A program made the translations under genes and the position numbers. Positions 58,459-64,000 of a stretch of 64,000 nt of DNA are shown here, piece after piece. Source of the stretch: an uncultured Gemmatimonadota bacterium (lineage in GTDB: Bacteria; Gemmatimonadota; Gemmatimonadetes; Gemmatimonadales; Gemmatimonadaceae); the NCBI GenBank assembly GCA_902826615.1, contig CADEFN010000002.1, positions 434,001 through 498,000 of the forward strand, written 5' to 3'. The notes under the pieces are model-generated. The model searched no databases, was not told the origin of the DNA, and saw only the letters and a list, made by a program, of their open reading frames with translations. Every line of letters starts with the position of its first letter. Position 1 is the first letter of the stretch.

Positions 58459-59346
58459 ATGACAGAGACACTCACGCTGGGCGTGGTCGGTGGCGGGCTC
58501 ATGGGAAGCGGCATTGCCCAGGTCGCGGCGGTGGCCGGTATCGACACCGTGGTGTGCGAAGTCGAGGCTGCCGCAGCCGATCGTGCTGGCGCCCTGATCG
58601 ACAAAACACTGGCCCGCGGTGTGGAACGCGGCAAATTATCTGAAGCAGATGCGCAGGCTGCTCGATCCCGCATTCGGGTGACGCATCATCTGGAGAAGCT
58701 CTCGGAGCGACACCTGATCATCGAAGCGGTCGTCGAATCGCTGGATGCCAAACGCGCGGTGTGGTCTGCCCTCGACCGGATTGCCGCGCCCGAGTGTGTC
58801 TTTGCGTCGAACACCTCCAGTCTGTCCATCGCCGACCAGGCGGCTGCCACCAGCCGCGGTGATCGCTTTGTGGGACTGCATTTCTTCAGTCCGGTGCCGG
58901 CCATGCCACTGGTGGAAGTGGTGCGCACCGTGACCACGAGTGATGCCACGATGACCGCCGCCCTCGCCTTTGTGGCGAAGATCGGCAAGCAGGCGATCGT
59001 GGCGCGTGACACACCGGGGTTTGTCGTGAACCTCCTCCTTGTCCCCTACATGCTCGATGCCATCAGGGCTTTCGAGTCCGGTGTGGCGTCGGTTCGCGAC
59101 ATCGACATGGGGATGCAGCTGGGAGCCGGGCATCCCACGGGGCCCCTGGCGTTGTGTGACTATGTCGGGCTCGACACGCTCGAACGGGTGGGTGGCGTGA
59201 TGTATGAGGCGTTCAAGGAGCGTCGTTATGCACCCCCACCCCTGCTCCACCGCATGGTGGTGAGTGGATGGCTGGGTCGCAAAAGCCGGCAGGGATTTTA
59301 TGACTACCGCGTGGACCCGCCGGTGCCGCGGGACTTCGCGGGGTAA
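58459..59346 (+). CDS. 3-hydroxyacyl-CoA dehydrogenase (3-hydroxybutyryl-CoA dehydrogenase type)
   Basis: A 295-residue NAD-dependent enzyme of fatty-acid or butanoate metabolism. The NAD site is LGVVGGGLMGSGIAQVAAVAG (about 6-26), the catalytic dyad includes His in VGLHFFSPVP and Glu in the LVEVVRT segment, Ser/Asn in SNTSSLSI and Asn in DTPGFVVNLLLVPYMLDAI, followed by the C-terminal helical domain GMQLGAGHPTGPLALCDYVGLDT. A short-chain substrate is likely from the size. No thiolase or enoyl-CoA hydratase is adjacent. Confidence 0.9.
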   Translation: MTETLTLGVVGGGLMGSGIAQVAAVAGIDTVVCEVEAAAADRAGALIDKTLARGVERGKLSEADAQAARSRIRVTHHLEKLSERHLIIEAVVESLDAKRAVWSALDRIAAPECVFASNTSSLSIADQAAATSRGDRFVGLHFFSPVPAMPLVEVVRTVTTSDATMTAALAFVAKIGKQAIVARDTPGFVVNLLLVPYMLDAIRAFESGVASVRDIDMGMQLGAGHPTGPLALCDYVGLDTLERVGGVMYEAFKERRYAPPPLLHRMVVSGWLGRKSRQGFYDYRVDPPVPRDFAG

Positions 59347-59353
59347 GCGGCCC

Positions 59354-60757
59354 ATGCGGCTGGCCTGCACCTCTCAGCTCCTTGTGGCCGGGTGTCTGGC
59401 TGCATGGCCCCTGCCTGCCCAGCACATCGGAGGGGTGGTGTACGACAGCCTGGCGCGCGCGCCTGTGGCTGGCGCCACGGTGCAAGTCGTGCCGGTGGAT
59501 GCCACGCTGCTGGCCGTTGCTCGCCGTACTGTGACCAGCGACGCCGCGGGGAACTTCACGACCGACGCACTTCCACCAGGACGCTACCTGGTGGGGTTTT
59601 TTCATGCCCGGCTCGACTCGTTAGGTCTGGATGCGCCAGTGCGCCGAGTGGAGCTGCGGCCGGGCGCCCCGCTGATGCTGGAACTGACGGTACCCTCTGC
59701 CACCTCCATCATCCGGCTCTGGTGTGGGGCCGGCTCCGTGCGCGACTCGACCGGAGTCATTCTTGGCCATGTGCGCGACGCCAGCACACGGGGCACCGTG
59801 AGCGACGGCGAACTCCATGCGCAGTGGAGCGCGATCACCCTCTCCGCTGGGGGGGCGAGGGCGTCGGTTCAGAGCTCGTCAGCGCGCACGTCACCGTTGG
59901 GGTGGTTTGGTGTGTGCGGAGTCCCCCGTGGTGGAGTGCTCGCACTGCGGGCCATGGCGGGCGCCGATTCGAGTCCGGTGCTGGAGATCGACGTCCCTGA
60001 TGACGGCGTGCTGCTGCACGACTTCTCCCTGCCGCGTGGCGCCGCTCGCACACCGCAGAGTGCCACGCTGGTACGCGGAGTGGTGCGCGACCCGACGGGG
60101 TCACCGCTGGCGGGCGCGCGTATCCGGCTCTCCGGCGCCGAGGACGAGGTGCGCGCCGACGCCCGGGGCGCGTTCCAGATTCCGGCCCGTGCCCTCGGCT
60201 CCCAGCTTATCGACGTGCGCATGATCGGGTTTGTGCCCATGCGTCGTGTGGTGGATGTCGAACCGGGAACGGGGACGGACGTGGACCTGACGATGAGCGA
60301 CTTTCCGATGGAGATCGATACGGTCCGGGTGCTCGCCCGCCGGCCGGCGCGACGCGAGGCCGAGGCAGGGTTTGAATCGCGCCGTCGGCTGGGGCACGGG
60401 GAGTTTCTGGACGCCGAAACCATCGAACGTCGCCGGCCCCTGGTGTTCTCGGACCTGTTGCGAGGCATGCCGGGTACCGAGATTCGTTCGGTGGACATGA
60501 TGACCAGGGTGGTGCAGATGCGCGCGTCTGACGGACGAGGGTCCTGTGTGCCGGTCATTATTGTCGACGGGGTACGGCTCAATCACGTGGAGATGAACAT
60601 CGACGACGCCATCCCGGCCGAAATGGTGCGTGCGATCGAGGTCTATCCGAGACGCATTCAGGCTCCCCCCGAGTTCCAGACCCCCGACTGCGGCAGTGTC
60701 GTGGTCTGGACCGGAGCGCGCGGATGGCTGGCGCGTCCACGACGGAGCAATCGTTAG
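59354..60757 (+). CDS. Barrel-less TonB-receptor-like protein 1 (regulatory domains plus plug)
   Basis: A 467-residue exported protein. Signal peptide (1-22); CarboxypepD-regulatory-like domain (about 25-105, with GGVVYDSLARAPVAGATVQVV); a middle beta domain (about 115-235) with LWCGAGSVRDS and FGVCGVPRGGVLAL cysteines; a second regulatory domain (about 238-325, RGVVRDPTGSPLAGARIRLSG); and a plug-like domain (about 335-467) with IDTVRVLARRPARREAEAGFE, FSDLLRGMPGTEI, CVPVIIVDGVRLN and PDCGSVVVWTG. A TonB receptor should have a barrel of several hundred residues after the plug; this one ends. First of three tandem paralogues. Confidence 0.75.
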   Translation: MRLACTSQLLVAGCLAAWPLPAQHIGGVVYDSLARAPVAGATVQVVPVDATLLAVARRTVTSDAAGNFTTDALPPGRYLVGFFHARLDSLGLDAPVRRVELRPGAPLMLELTVPSATSIIRLWCGAGSVRDSTGVILGHVRDASTRGTVSDGELHAQWSAITLSAGGARASVQSSSARTSPLGWFGVCGVPRGGVLALRAMAGADSSPVLEIDVPDDGVLLHDFSLPRGAARTPQSATLVRGVVRDPTGSPLAGARIRLSGAEDEVRADARGAFQIPARALGSQLIDVRMIGFVPMRRVVDVEPGTGTDVDLTMSDFPMEIDTVRVLARRPARREAEAGFESRRRLGHGEFLDAETIERRRPLVFSDLLRGMPGTEIRSVDMMTRVVQMRASDGRGSCVPVIIVDGVRLNHVEMNIDDAIPAEMVRAIEVYPRRIQAPPEFQTPDCGSVVVWTGARGWLARPRRSNR

Positions 60758-62169
60758 GCGTGCGCCGGCTCCTGCTCCTGCTCCTGCTCCTGCTCACCGG
60801 GCTGACGCGTAGCGCGTCGGCCCAGCCTGGCTCGCTGGTGACGGGGGTCGTCTTTGACAGCGTGGCCGGGCGCCCGCTGGCCGGGGCGGCTGTGCAGCTG
60901 CTTCTCGCCAGCAATCCGGCCGCACTCCAGCCGTTCAAGTCCGTTTATGCCGACGCCGAGGGACGGTACTACTTCGACACGGTGCCTCGCGGACGGTATG
61001 CGGTCGGCTTCCTGCATCCGCGAGTGGACTCCCTGCAGATCGAAACCCCGCTCGTGCCCGTCGCGGTTCCCGATTCGGGTTCCGTCGTGGCAATGCTGGG
61101 GATTCCAACGGCGGGCAGCATCATCAAGGCCTCGTGCAAGTCTACGGACGGCGAAACCGGGTTGCTGGTCGGCCGCGCACGCTCTGCCACCTCGCTCCTT
61201 CCGGCCGCAGGCGGGAGTGTGCGTGTGGAGTGGGAAAACTTCACGCTGAACAACCGCGCAGTGCAGCGACTCACGCGGGGGGCGACGGTCCGTACTGCTG
61301 AGGATGGTGCCTTTCAGCTGTGCGGGGTTCCGCGCGGCGGCCTGGTCCGCGTGCGCCTCACGCATGGACTGGAAGCGTCGGGTGTGGTGACCCTGATGGT
61401 GCCCGAACAGGGGTTGCTGCAGCGCGACCTCTTTGCGTCGGCTGAGCAGGACACATCGCTCACTCCCGTCACCACAACCCGGGGCGACTATCGTGGCGTG
61501 ATTCGCGGGCGCACGATGCATGGGGAAGGATTCCCTGTGCCACGCGTTCGTGTGCGCTTTGCCGATGGTGTGGCGGAGGCCACCAGCAATGACGAGGGCT
61601 ATTTCACCCTTCGGGGCGTGCCACTCGGCTCGGCCACGCTCGACCTGCGCGCCGTGGGATATCTCCCCGTCATCATGCCGGTGGATGTCCTGGGCGATGA
61701 GCCAGGTACTCCCAGCTACGTCATGCAGACTCGCGCGGAATATCTGGACACCGTGAAGGTGATCGCCAAGGACGTCCGGGATTTCAACACCGGGATTGCC
61801 GGGTTCGAACAACGCCGCATGCGTGGCATCGGTCACTACTTCAGCAAGGCGTCCATTGACAGCATTGCCCCGCAGGTGTTCACCGACATCCTGCGGCGCG
61901 TGACGGGGTTCACCCTGCTCCCATCGCGCAACGGCCCGAGACTCGTTATGCACGGTATGGGCTTGCAGATGTTCTGCGCTCCGGCGGTGTTTGTGAATGG
62001 CAGCCGCGCCTCCGAGCTGGATGGCACGGGACTCGACGCACTCGTGAACGTGCAGGATCTCGAGGCGGTGGAAGCCTACACACGGACAGGATCGATGCCC
62101 GCGCAGTTCCAGACGCTGGATGGCTGTGGTGCCCTGGCGATCTGGACCAAGGCCAAGCGGGGCACATGA
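60724..62169 (+). CDS. Barrel-less TonB-receptor-like protein 2
   Basis: A 481-residue paralogue with the same order: Leu-rich signal peptide encoded by a CTCCTG repeat (60769-60792), regulatory domain (about 40-115, TGVVFDSVAGRPLAGAAVQLL), middle domain with SIIKASCKSTDG and LCGVPRGGLVRV, second regulatory domain (about 255-340, RGRTMHGEGFPVPRVRVRF), and plug-like C terminus with EYLDTVKVIAKDVRDFNTG, FTDILRRVTGFTLLP, FCAPAVFVNGSRA and LDGCGALAIWT. The ATG at 60724 overlaps the preceding gene by 34 bases; a GTG at 60760 would remove 12 residues and is possible. Paired cysteines recur at equal places in all three copies. Confidence 0.75.
   Translation: MAGASTTEQSLGVRRLLLLLLLLLTGLTRSASAQPGSLVTGVVFDSVAGRPLAGAAVQLLLASNPAALQPFKSVYADAEGRYYFDTVPRGRYAVGFLHPRVDSLQIETPLVPVAVPDSGSVVAMLGIPTAGSIIKASCKSTDGETGLLVGRARSATSLLPAAGGSVRVEWENFTLNNRAVQRLTRGATVRTAEDGAFQLCGVPRGGLVRVRLTHGLEASGVVTLMVPEQGLLQRDLFASAEQDTSLTPVTTTRGDYRGVIRGRTMHGEGFPVPRVRVRFADGVAEATSNDEGYFTLRGVPLGSATLDLRAVGYLPVIMPVDVLGDEPGTPSYVMQTRAEYLDTVKVIAKDVRDFNTGIAGFEQRRMRGIGHYFSKASIDSIAPQVFTDILRRVTGFTLLPSRNGPRLVMHGMGLQMFCAPAVFVNGSRASELDGTGLDALVNVQDLEAVEAYTRTGSMPAQFQTLDGCGALAIWTKAKRGT
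60769..60792 (+). repeat. Hexanucleotide repeat in the signal peptide of receptor-like protein 2
   Basis: Four tandem CTCCTG units encode a run of leucines in the hydrophobic core of the signal peptide. Each unit adds two Leu residues without changing the frame, so copy-number changes would alter only the signal length. Confidence 0.75.
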
Positions 62170-63593
62170 AAGCGCTGCTGCTCGTGGGCGCCCTGCTGAC
62201 GGCGTTCGCGCCGTGCGCACACGGGCAGGTGACATCCCGCATCACCGGGACGGTGTACGACAGCATCGGAAGCCGGCACCTCTCCGACGCGCTGATCCAG
62301 CTGGTGCGGGGAGACAACCCGGCGGCCACCCTGAGCACCCGCTCGGACGCCGAGGGCCGCTACGCCTTCGACAGCGTCAGCGCCGGCACCTGGCTCATCG
62401 GCTTTTATCACCCGATGGTCGACTCGTTAGGGCTGGACATGCCCACGCTGCGGATAGACATCAACCGGGCCGATCCGGTCCGCGCGATGCTGACCATCCC
62501 ATCGGCGGCCACGGTAGTCCGGAATACCTGCGGCCCACTGCCGAAGGGCCACGGGTTGTGGTACGGCAGGGTCAAAAACGCCGCAACCGGAGGCCTCGCC
62601 GCTGGGGCTACTGTGCTGGCCCAGTGGAGCACCCTGGTGGTGCAAGGCACCAGCATCTCGCGTCAACTCGGTACGGTGGAAGACACCGCACGCGACGATG
62701 GTCTCTTTGCGATGTGCGGTGTTGGCACCGACGAGATTGTCGTAGCCCGCTCGTGGCTTGGCCCCGACTCCTCCGGTGTGGCGACCCTCTCCGTGCCCAG
62801 CAGCGGCTTGCTCTACCGGGACCTCTGGATCGCTCCGGTTATCATGGCGCAACGACGTGTGGCCGACGATTCTCTGAGCAGCGACTCCCTGAAAGTCCCG
62901 GTCCGTGTCGGCGACCGCAGCCTGCGAGGTCGCGTCGCGCGGGTCAATGGCAGCCCCGTCGAGGGTGCCCGCCTGCGCGTGCCAGACAGTGGGGTGGAAG
63001 TGGTCACCAACAGCAACGGATTTTTCACAGTCGACTCACTCCCCGCCGGGACACAAACCGTGGACCTGAGGGCGCTCGGCTTTCTGCCGGTGACGCAGAC
63101 GGTGGATCTCGCTGCCCCCGTGGTCACGCAAGACTTTGTCCTCGAATCGCGCACCACCTACCTCGACACCGTCAAGGTGATCGGGCAGCGCATAATGGAG
63201 AACCCGCGGTACCTCGATTTTCTCCAGCGCAAGAAAAGTGGCTTTGGCTATTTCCTGGACGAAGACCAGATTGAGCGACGACAACCCGTTTTTCTTGCCG
63301 ACCTCCTGCGCCTCACCCCAGGGATCATGGTCATGCCTTCCACCTTCGGCGGCGGCTCCATTCGCATGCGCGGCAGCAGCTTCACGGCGACCTGTTCCCC
63401 TGCGGTTTTTGTCGATGGGATGCTCATGGCACAGCTCGAGGGCGTCGACATCGAATCGTTCATCAACGTGCAGGACGTACGCGCCGTGGAAGTCTACGCG
63501 CGGACGGCATCCATTCCATCCCAATTCATGACGCTCACGGGCTGCGGATCGATAGTCATCACCACGGGAGCCCGGCGGAAGCGCCCGTCATGA
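62166..63593 (+). CDS. Barrel-less TonB-receptor-like protein 3
   Basis: A 475-residue paralogue with signal peptide (1-20), regulatory domain (about 22-95, SRITGTVYDSIGSRHLSDALI), middle domain with VRNTCGPLPKG and AMCGVGTDEIVV, second regulatory domain (about 255-335, RGRVARVNGSPVEGARLRV) and plug-like C terminus with TYLDTVKVIGQRIMENPRY, LADLLRLTPGIMVMPS, TCSPAVFVDGMLM and LTGCGSIVITTG. Its start overlaps the previous gene by four bases, and its stop overlaps the lipoprotein start (ATGA), so all four are probably one transcript. Confidence 0.75.
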   Translation: MKALLLVGALLTAFAPCAHGQVTSRITGTVYDSIGSRHLSDALIQLVRGDNPAATLSTRSDAEGRYAFDSVSAGTWLIGFYHPMVDSLGLDMPTLRIDINRADPVRAMLTIPSAATVVRNTCGPLPKGHGLWYGRVKNAATGGLAAGATVLAQWSTLVVQGTSISRQLGTVEDTARDDGLFAMCGVGTDEIVVARSWLGPDSSGVATLSVPSSGLLYRDLWIAPVIMAQRRVADDSLSSDSLKVPVRVGDRSLRGRVARVNGSPVEGARLRVPDSGVEVVTNSNGFFTVDSLPAGTQTVDLRALGFLPVTQTVDLAAPVVTQDFVLESRTTYLDTVKVIGQRIMENPRYLDFLQRKKSGFGYFLDEDQIERRQPVFLADLLRLTPGIMVMPSTFGGGSIRMRGSSFTATCSPAVFVDGMLMAQLEGVDIESFINVQDVRAVEVYARTASIPSQFMTLTGCGSIVITTGARRKRPS

Positions 63594-64000
63594 TGCGCCG
63601 GCTTTTTGGTCTACTGCTCGCGCTTACCGGCTGCGGTGAAGTACGCGAGGCCCCCCAGCCACCGGCCATAGTTCCTGCCGCCGAGGCCCCAGCGCTTTCG
63701 CGCGAAGCACCGGTATCGTCCAAAGCCTTCGGTCCGGAAATAGGATTTCGCTCTCGCCGGCTCCTCACCGAACACGTCGAGAAACATGGCGCTGAGTTCG
63801 GCGGTGTCTCCACTGCCGTGTACCTGAGGCTGGCGCAGCAGCTCCGTGATGCCGAACCAGGCGGCGACATTATCGAAGTCACGCGTGCGGACGGAACGAT
63901 CTCCAGATTCCAGCGCTCCACGGGTGCCTTCATCGCCTTTAACGGCGACGGCACCATCCGCACCTTCTTCAAGCCAAATGACGGCGAGAAGTACTTCCAG
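63590..64000 (+). CDS. Lipoprotein with contact-toxin-like domain, C-terminally cut by the window
   Basis: 137 codons are visible and the frame is open at the window end. Start MMRRLFGLLLALTGCGEV gives a lipoprotein signal (lipobox LTGC, Cys at about 15), then a Pro/Ala linker (about 20-45), then a domain beginning FGPEIGFRSRRLLTEHVEKHG and continuing GGDIIEVTRADGTISRFQR and GDGTIRTFFKPNDGEKYF. The 'HxxKHGxEF' and 'DGTIRTFFKP' segments resemble the C-terminal nuclease domains of contact-dependent or polymorphic toxins (RelE/BECR-type fold), from memory of such sequences rather than a search. No immunity gene is in view. Function uncertain. Confidence 0.5.
   Translation, partial: MMRRLFGLLLALTGCGEVREAPQPPAIVPAAEAPALSREAPVSSKAFGPEIGFRSRRLLTEHVEKHGAEFGGVSTAVYLRLAQQLRDAEPGGDIIEVTRADGTISRFQRSTGAFIAFNGDGTIRTFFKPNDGEKYFQ

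Follow-up and report, generated by a model that had tools for sequence, protein, structure and literature searches.

Barrel-less TonB-plug proteins: three tandem genes of an uncultured Gemmatimonadota bacterium and a conserved exported family of the phylum

The window analysed here is the whole stretch of 64,000 nucleotides from an uncultured Gemmatimonadota bacterium of the family Gemmatimonadaceae (assembly GCA_902826615.1, contig CADEFN010000002.1, positions 434,001 to 498,000 of the forward strand). Close to its end, three adjacent genes encode the proteins P0001, P0002 and P0003 which, judging by sequence and predicted fold, correspond in architecture to the front half of an Oar- or SusC-type receptor and end directly after the plug domain. 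Plug-only proteins of this kind are a common, conserved exported family in Gemmatimonadota. Their role is tentatively read as that of TonB-linked periplasmic adaptors or sensors. The three genes were determined as open reading frames (ORFs) at the following window positions:

59354 to 60757, plus strand: plug-only protein P0001, ORF of 467 amino acids (aa); Pfam and family plug profile
60724 to 62169, plus strand: plug-only protein P0002, ORF of 481 aa with an alternative GTG start at 60760; family profile
62166 to 63593, plus strand: plug-only protein P0003, ORF of 475 aa; Pfam and AlphaFold model

Results

Organization of the tandem genes

The first-pass annotation of the window had described three tandem paralogues with a common domain order, and this description was borne out. 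The ORFs are real, lie on the plus strand and share 32-39% pairwise identity. In each protein, a signal-peptide-like start leads into two CarboxypepD_reg-type domains that enclose a middle beta domain, and a plug-like end completes the chain. The conserved Cys-Gly ends, CGSVVVWT, CGALAIWT and CGSIVITT, were found as annotated, and the chains stop 14, 6 and 8 residues past them in P0001, P0002 and P0003, respectively. The claimed translational coupling stood for P0002 and P0003, which overlap by 4 bases, the same overlap as between P0003 and the downstream gene. For P0001 and P0002 the coupling is not certain because it depends on the start codon: the genes overlap by 34 bases with ATG 60724 and are 2 bases apart with GTG 60760. 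In the ORF reading, no barrel reached by a frameshift was detected after P0001, P0002 or P0003, nor was any barrel detected downstream in the window. As the next gene begins directly at each stop, no barrel is hidden behind the three genes. P0003 is followed by a lipoprotein-like ORF of 146 aa and an ORF of 140 aa.

Domains and predicted fold

CarboxypepD_reg (PF13620) matched two stretches of each protein, with whole-protein scores of 69.2-95.1 bits against the cut-off of 32.3. The Pfam Plug model was passed by P0003 with 31.3 bits; P0001, with 21.8 bits, was just below the cut-off of 23.9, and the Pfam search found no Plug in P0002. The family plug profile, constructed from 40 members including P0002, matched P0002 at 9e-47. 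The AlphaFold model of P0003, computed with 39 relatives, had a mean predicted local distance difference test (pLDDT) value of 89.1 and consisted of three beta sandwiches, a linker and a plug. The linker residues 332-344 were below pLDDT 50 in this whole-protein model. The plug modelled alone resulted in a pLDDT of 84.6.

In the searches with the whole P0003 model, Foldseek returned mostly pilin and CnaB strings, without a TonB receptor among the 50 matches listed, and VIA returned no receptor barrel or plug among its 50 matches listed, except the SusC extension. A weak or missing receptor match with the whole model carries no meaning, and the plug was folded separately for the search. With the plug alone, Foldseek gave 28 matches at E ≤ 0.001 and all 50 matches listed were TonB-dependent receptors. 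The best VIA match was SusC BT1763 in 6z9a (Z 9.8, 3.7 A over 111 residues); a Z of 8 was reached by 5 of 467 chains. The profile of the 40 members also spans the extension and plug of XusA (9gbc) with an E of 1.9e-15. The plug fold claimed by the annotation is consequently supported by the modelling. The domains and motifs were located as follows:

60071 to 60298, plus strand: third domain of P0001, CarboxypepD_reg (Pfam, residues 240-315)
60314 to 60337, plus strand: TonB-box-like motif IDTVRVLA of P0001 (sequence; putative function)
60353 to 60718, plus strand: plug domain of P0001, approximate limits, with Cys398 and Cys446 (Pfam, family profile, signature)
61744 to 61767, plus strand: TonB-box-like motif LDTVKVIA of P0002 (sequence; putative function)
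61783 to 62151, plus strand: plug domain of P0002, approximate limits by alignment to P0003, with Cys418 and Cys468 (family profile, signature)
62226 to 62504, plus strand: first domain of P0003, transthyretin-like / CarboxypepD_reg (Pfam, model, structure search)
62505 to 62858, plus strand: middle beta-sandwich domain of P0003 with Cys122 and Cys184 (model, conservation)
62910 to 63149, plus strand: third domain of P0003, SusC N-terminal extension fold (Pfam; 9hfj, Z 13.2, 1.8 A over 80 residues)
63162 to 63185, plus strand: TonB-box-like motif LDTVKVIG of P0003 in the low-confidence linker (model, conservation; putative function)
63198 to 63575, plus strand: plug domain of P0003 with Cys410 and Cys460 (Pfam, AlphaFold, Foldseek, VIA)

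Distribution of the family and its end point

The search of related genomes for the same architecture, proposed by the annotation, revealed a conserved plug-only family. A profile built on the host's seven long paralogues matched in 249 of 298 Gemmatimonadota genomes at E ≤ 1e-20; the number refers to genomes, not copies, with the best five candidates scored in each of 298 genomes drawn from a larger group. Matches of the plug profile at E ≤ 1e-12 were obtained in 90 of 121 genomes of the phylum, up to 17 per genome, with at most 32 candidates scored in each. The loci of the relatives (L numbers) belonged to Gemmatimonadota in 27 of 29 cases; L095 is assigned as bacterium only and L098, a weak match, to Saprospirales. 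In Bacteroidota, the sole other phylum sampled, 2 of 198 genomes matched at E ≤ 1e-10, and the cysteine pair of the plug is present in the short relative L139 and absent from L140. Twelve matches of the plug profile were detected in the host genome. Ten of them, at E ≤ 4e-7, are family-like, two of these forming the partial pair L019, and the other two are receptors with 25 bits or less.

The plugs were gathered from 100 ORFs, corresponding to 101 rows (L107-2_63 twice), of which the 96 with a closed ORF and the profile end reached were counted. The five remaining rows are L060, L151, L152, L068 (open-ended) and the first part of L107-2_63, the second part of which was counted. The chain stops within 30 residues past the plug, 27 at most, in 93 of the 96 members, which are distinct by plug sequence, yet many are close orthologues. 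The other three continue for another 119-130 residues, into a TonB C-terminal domain. In Pfam, CarboxypepD_reg was detected in 90 members, Plug (PF07715, E ≤ 0.001) in 77 and TonB_C in 3, and a barrel family in none, considering all 17 families matched. Since the barrel was searched for and is absent (0/96), the plug-only proteins are not TonB-dependent receptors. In NCBIfam, the most frequent were partial matches to an S-layer model (84 members) and to SusC/RagA (TIGR04056; 53 members), and a family-specific name was absent among the 18 families matching the members. In the literature searched, which left most subscription journals and preprints outside, no paper on such plug-only proteins was found; databases may label them.

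In the tree of 80 long members, P0001 groups with one congeneric copy (100/97) and with copies that come from two further genera (100/99), and P0002 and P0003 are sisters (100/93). The tandem is therefore partly old.

Relatives also lie at two further loci of the host genome. L017:1051-2202 (minus strand; G000:C1 near 907,800) encodes a protein of 383 aa with a signal-peptide-like start, CarboxypepD_reg, Plug (54.6 bits) and TonB_C (44.5 bits), the strongest TonB_C match of the genome; it has no barrel. In the host, six TonB_C matches are above the Pfam cut-off, this fusion being one of them, and a seventh is slightly below it. Similar fusions are L161 and L165. L019 (G000:C1 near 851,000) comprises two short tandem family ORFs, the second with a Plug match of 30.9 bits and the first a weak partial relative. 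A single genome match spanning both ORFs of L019 crosses stop codons.

Conserved positions and selection

The annotation's statement that cysteines recur at matching positions was confirmed. Among the 40 long members, Cys122 and Cys184 of the middle domain are invariant, and Cys410 and Cys460 of the plug are present in 39 and 40, respectively. The two plug cysteines were found in 90 and 91 of the 92 full plugs; in L016 the Cys is shifted and L017 has neither. We infer that the two plug cysteines form a disulfide. In CGxxxxWT, the Trp is conserved in 91 of the 92, the exception being Thr, as in P0003. A loose form of the end signature fits all 92 full plugs, and a strict form fits 74 of them and 0 of 1840 shuffles, the patterns having been written after the members had been seen. 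Neither form occurs in the 27 receptor-size ORFs of the host genome, a number in which some genes are included twice (L001/L022, L007/L020, L006/L021) and some are cut by locus ends. Some of the agreement within the family arises by construction, since the counted members include those used to build the profiles.

The ratio of nonsynonymous to synonymous substitution rates (dN/dS) of the plug was 0.01-0.12 in nine of ten close orthologue pairs and was lower than that of the other domains in eight of the ten. The conservation and the low dN/dS values argue that the plug is not a remnant.

A separate conserved site lies in the first domain. The motif GFxHPxxDSLG (P0003 residues 79-89, window 62400-62432, and its equivalents) contains H82 and D86, both invariant in 40 of 40 long members, and could be a binding site.

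TonB-box-like motif

The linker preceding the plug carries the consensus L-D-T-V-[RK]-V-x-A. The eight columns of the motif have a mean information content of 2.75 bits, compared with 1.68 before and 1.09 after it. In the 92 full plugs the D is present in 74, and a hydrophobic residue occupies the position of the first V in 92 and that of the second V in 88. Judging by sequence, the motif is conserved and lies at the position of a TonB box, where the linker is predicted to be disordered. BT1763 has its box, DEVVVTG, between the extension and the plug, and deleting it or replacing it with an all-Ala box is reported to impair growth on levan (PMC7782687). For Oar, an N-terminal part without the barrel, composed of extension and plug, is reported to bind the C-terminal domain of TonB in a two-hybrid assay (PMC6434023). 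A conserved box in a linker predicted to be disordered would fit the idea, raised in the annotation, of receptors for TonB without transport.

Search for a partner barrel

The annotation had also suggested adaptors for a separate barrel protein, possibly encoded nearby. In the host genome, 41 of 43 PF00593 barrel ORFs carry their own Plug match, and there are 57 Plug matches in all. Barrel ORFs lacking a Pfam Plug match have 1058, 1129 and 1427 aa (two PF00593, one more PF25183). All three are long enough for a plug missed by Pfam, and the 1129-aa ORF aligns to P0003 residues 250-404, reaching into the plug. The PF14905 matches of the genome are all in ORFs of 665 aa or more. No clear plugless barrel was detected in the host genome with three Pfam barrel models, the Plug and barrel lists being matched by position and by eye.

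The neighbourhoods comprised 125 proteins from 32 loci, of which 98 were scanned together with two hand-read ORFs; some of the other 27 are longer than 1,200 aa. Among these 100 neighbour proteins, no family occurred in more than 4 and no barrel family was present, considering the 25 most frequent of 130 families, the top ones of which come partly from orthologous loci. The neighbour genes were obtained from a codon-usage caller, and the strand was judged wrong at L009 13611-14048. Receptor-size ORFs were present in at least 6 of the 32 loci (L070, L074, L082, L104, L108, L111). The proposed adaptor function for a separate barrel thus found no support in the host genome, and a nearby barrel was seen neither downstream in the window nor among the commonest neighbour families. 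Within this limited test there was no sign of a dedicated barrel or a conserved operon partner.

Neighbouring genes

A 3-hydroxyacyl-CoA dehydrogenase gene (58459-59346) lies 7 bases upstream of the cluster, and its homologues are located beside plug-only genes in L099, L100 and L101. In L100, a gene read by eye as an M61-like peptidase follows the cluster. The two ORFs downstream of P0003, the lipoprotein-like one (63590-64000, running off the window end; L009:13590-14030) and the next one (L009:14027-14449), are joined by 4-base overlaps. L100 and L101 have the pair as well, with identities of 57% and 54%, and 46% and 47%, respectively. It had no Pfam match better than E 0.2. The L100 lipoprotein matches 8ey4_A, a 'PT-VENN domain-containing protein', over residues 90-167 with an E of 9e-4. 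The match points to a toxin domain used in competition between bacteria, with a candidate immunity protein, in the downstream pair.

At L070:7959-17287, a plug-only gene has a one-base overlap with a cytochrome c gene (two haem motifs), and a multihaem cytochrome c, a SusC-like receptor and a SusD-like protein are encoded further on, all read by eye. The sizes of the ORFs after the plug-only genes of L072 and L074 resemble those of L070. This subgroup may be linked to electron transfer.

Discussion

The function favoured here, with slightly less than even confidence, is that of a TonB-linked periplasmic adaptor or sensor, not a transporter. In this reading, the exported proteins reuse the N-terminal half of an Oar/SusC-type receptor, composed of the CarboxypepD_reg extension, the TonB box and the plug, without the barrel. 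The disulfide of the plug cysteines and the Trp of CGxxxxWT would keep the plug folded without a surrounding barrel. The TonB C-terminal domain would bind the box in the periplasm, docking to the protein or pulling it, and the pull or docking would be relayed to the binding partner of the plug and the transthyretin-like domains, be it a ligand, the cell wall or a further protein of the envelope. The protein would then act in the periplasm as an adaptor or sensor that TonB drives or gates. The isolated FepA plug has been reported to be unfolded (Usher et al. 2001, cited in PMC11658791), and in the simulations of FpvA described in PMC10994204 one half of the plug yields to force and the other half resists. 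Because both family cysteines are in the C-terminal half, the bond would pin the resistant half together and might make up for the missing support of a barrel. A bolder form of the proposal, according to which TonB pulls the disulfide-stapled plugs of a widespread class of barrel-less clients and thereby sends energy of the proton motive force or a signal to an envelope partner, is considered rather unlikely.

Several observations weigh against an adaptor or sensor linked to TonB. The plug-alone model draws the linker as a helix with pLDDT 54-59, so the disorder of the linker is the prediction of one of two models. D and T occur together in only 64 of the 92 full plugs, and the family box, LDTVRVxA, differs from the LDEVVVTG-like boxes at the same place in the host receptors; the box could be a leftover. 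The plug cysteines are dispensable in at least one relative, as L017 is without both. The plug dN/dS of the pair L069/L067 was 0.47, and ten pairs are few. No conserved neighbour naming a partner was found among the 100 neighbour proteins.

The plug could instead be an ordinary periplasmic binding or interaction module with no TonB role, the box being a structural leftover. Strings of transthyretin-like domains are common in binding and surface proteins, the invariant H82 and D86 of the first domain suggest another functional site, and the Bacteroidota relative L140 has no clear box, though L139 keeps MDAIVVEG. The box is, however, more conserved than its flanks despite the pLDDT below 50 of the linker, which is the behaviour of a binding motif and not of a leftover; this explanation is regarded as possible, though doubtful. 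Soluble box carriers might also regulate or buffer the Ton system by competing with receptors for TonB. The up to 17 matches per genome, the dozens of receptors in the host genome and the three members fused to a TonB C-terminal domain are in line with such a role, but a TonB decoy would need neither a strongly conserved plug nor three further domains, which makes it improbable.

The TonB-linked adaptor or sensor also has to be compared with explanations in which the proteins belong, or once belonged, to a receptor. Plugs acting in trans on separate barrels, as in a split receptor, would be in agreement with the description of the BT1763 barrel, which can exist in vitro with the plug absent or ejected (PMC7782687), with the three long barrel ORFs of the host without a Pfam Plug match, and with the receptor-size ORFs at some of the loci. 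The nearly complete presence of own plugs in the PF00593 ORFs, the sufficient length of the remaining barrel ORFs, the alignment of one of them into the P0003 plug, the restriction of PF14905 to long ORFs and the lack of a barrel among the 25 most frequent neighbour families make split receptors very improbable. Decaying receptors would explain why the proteins are homologous to the first half of Oar/SusC receptors, but the end point shared by 93 of the 96 members, the strong purifying selection on the plug in nine of ten pairs and the absence of the signature from the receptor-size ORFs leave this explanation with almost no probability. Accidental truncation had already been judged unlikely by the first-pass annotation, and truncated or frameshifted receptors were rejected here on the grounds of the gene following at each stop, the common end and the low plug dN/dS.

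The plug is normally treated as a part of a transporter, and a barrel-less family preserving plug and TonB-box-like motif throughout much of a phylum implies that it can work alone. Such proteins would offer a soluble system for studying the binding and pulling by TonB without detergent. If TonB binds them, the Ton system has a wider purpose; if the proteins are barrel-less clients, it works beyond moving things across the outer membrane.

Comparison with known systems

The order of CarboxypepD_reg extension, TonB box and plug is the same as in Oar of Myxococcus xanthus (PMC6434023). In Oar a barrel, predicted to be 22-stranded, follows, whereas P0001, P0002 and P0003 end at the plug; in addition, the long plug-only members have two more beta-sandwich domains ahead of the extension. 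The SusC/RagA proteins (BT1763, XusA, RagA) resemble the family in the predicted fold of the N-terminal extension (Z 13.2) and the plug (Z 9.8), and the plug-only proteins differ from them in having no barrel and no conserved neighbour seen. The TIGR04056 scores of P0003 and P0001, 33.2 and 23.2 bits, are far from the SusC/RagA cut-off of 368.25, and no match was listed for P0002. Compared with the general Plug family PF07715, the plug-only family has the signature P-x-[QE]-F ... CGxxxxWT and the cysteine pair. The three members ending in TonB_C, one of which is L017 of the host genome, share this domain with the TonB C-terminal domain proteins (PF03544); L017, however, starts with a signal-peptide-like stretch, the extension and the plug in place of the usual membrane anchor.

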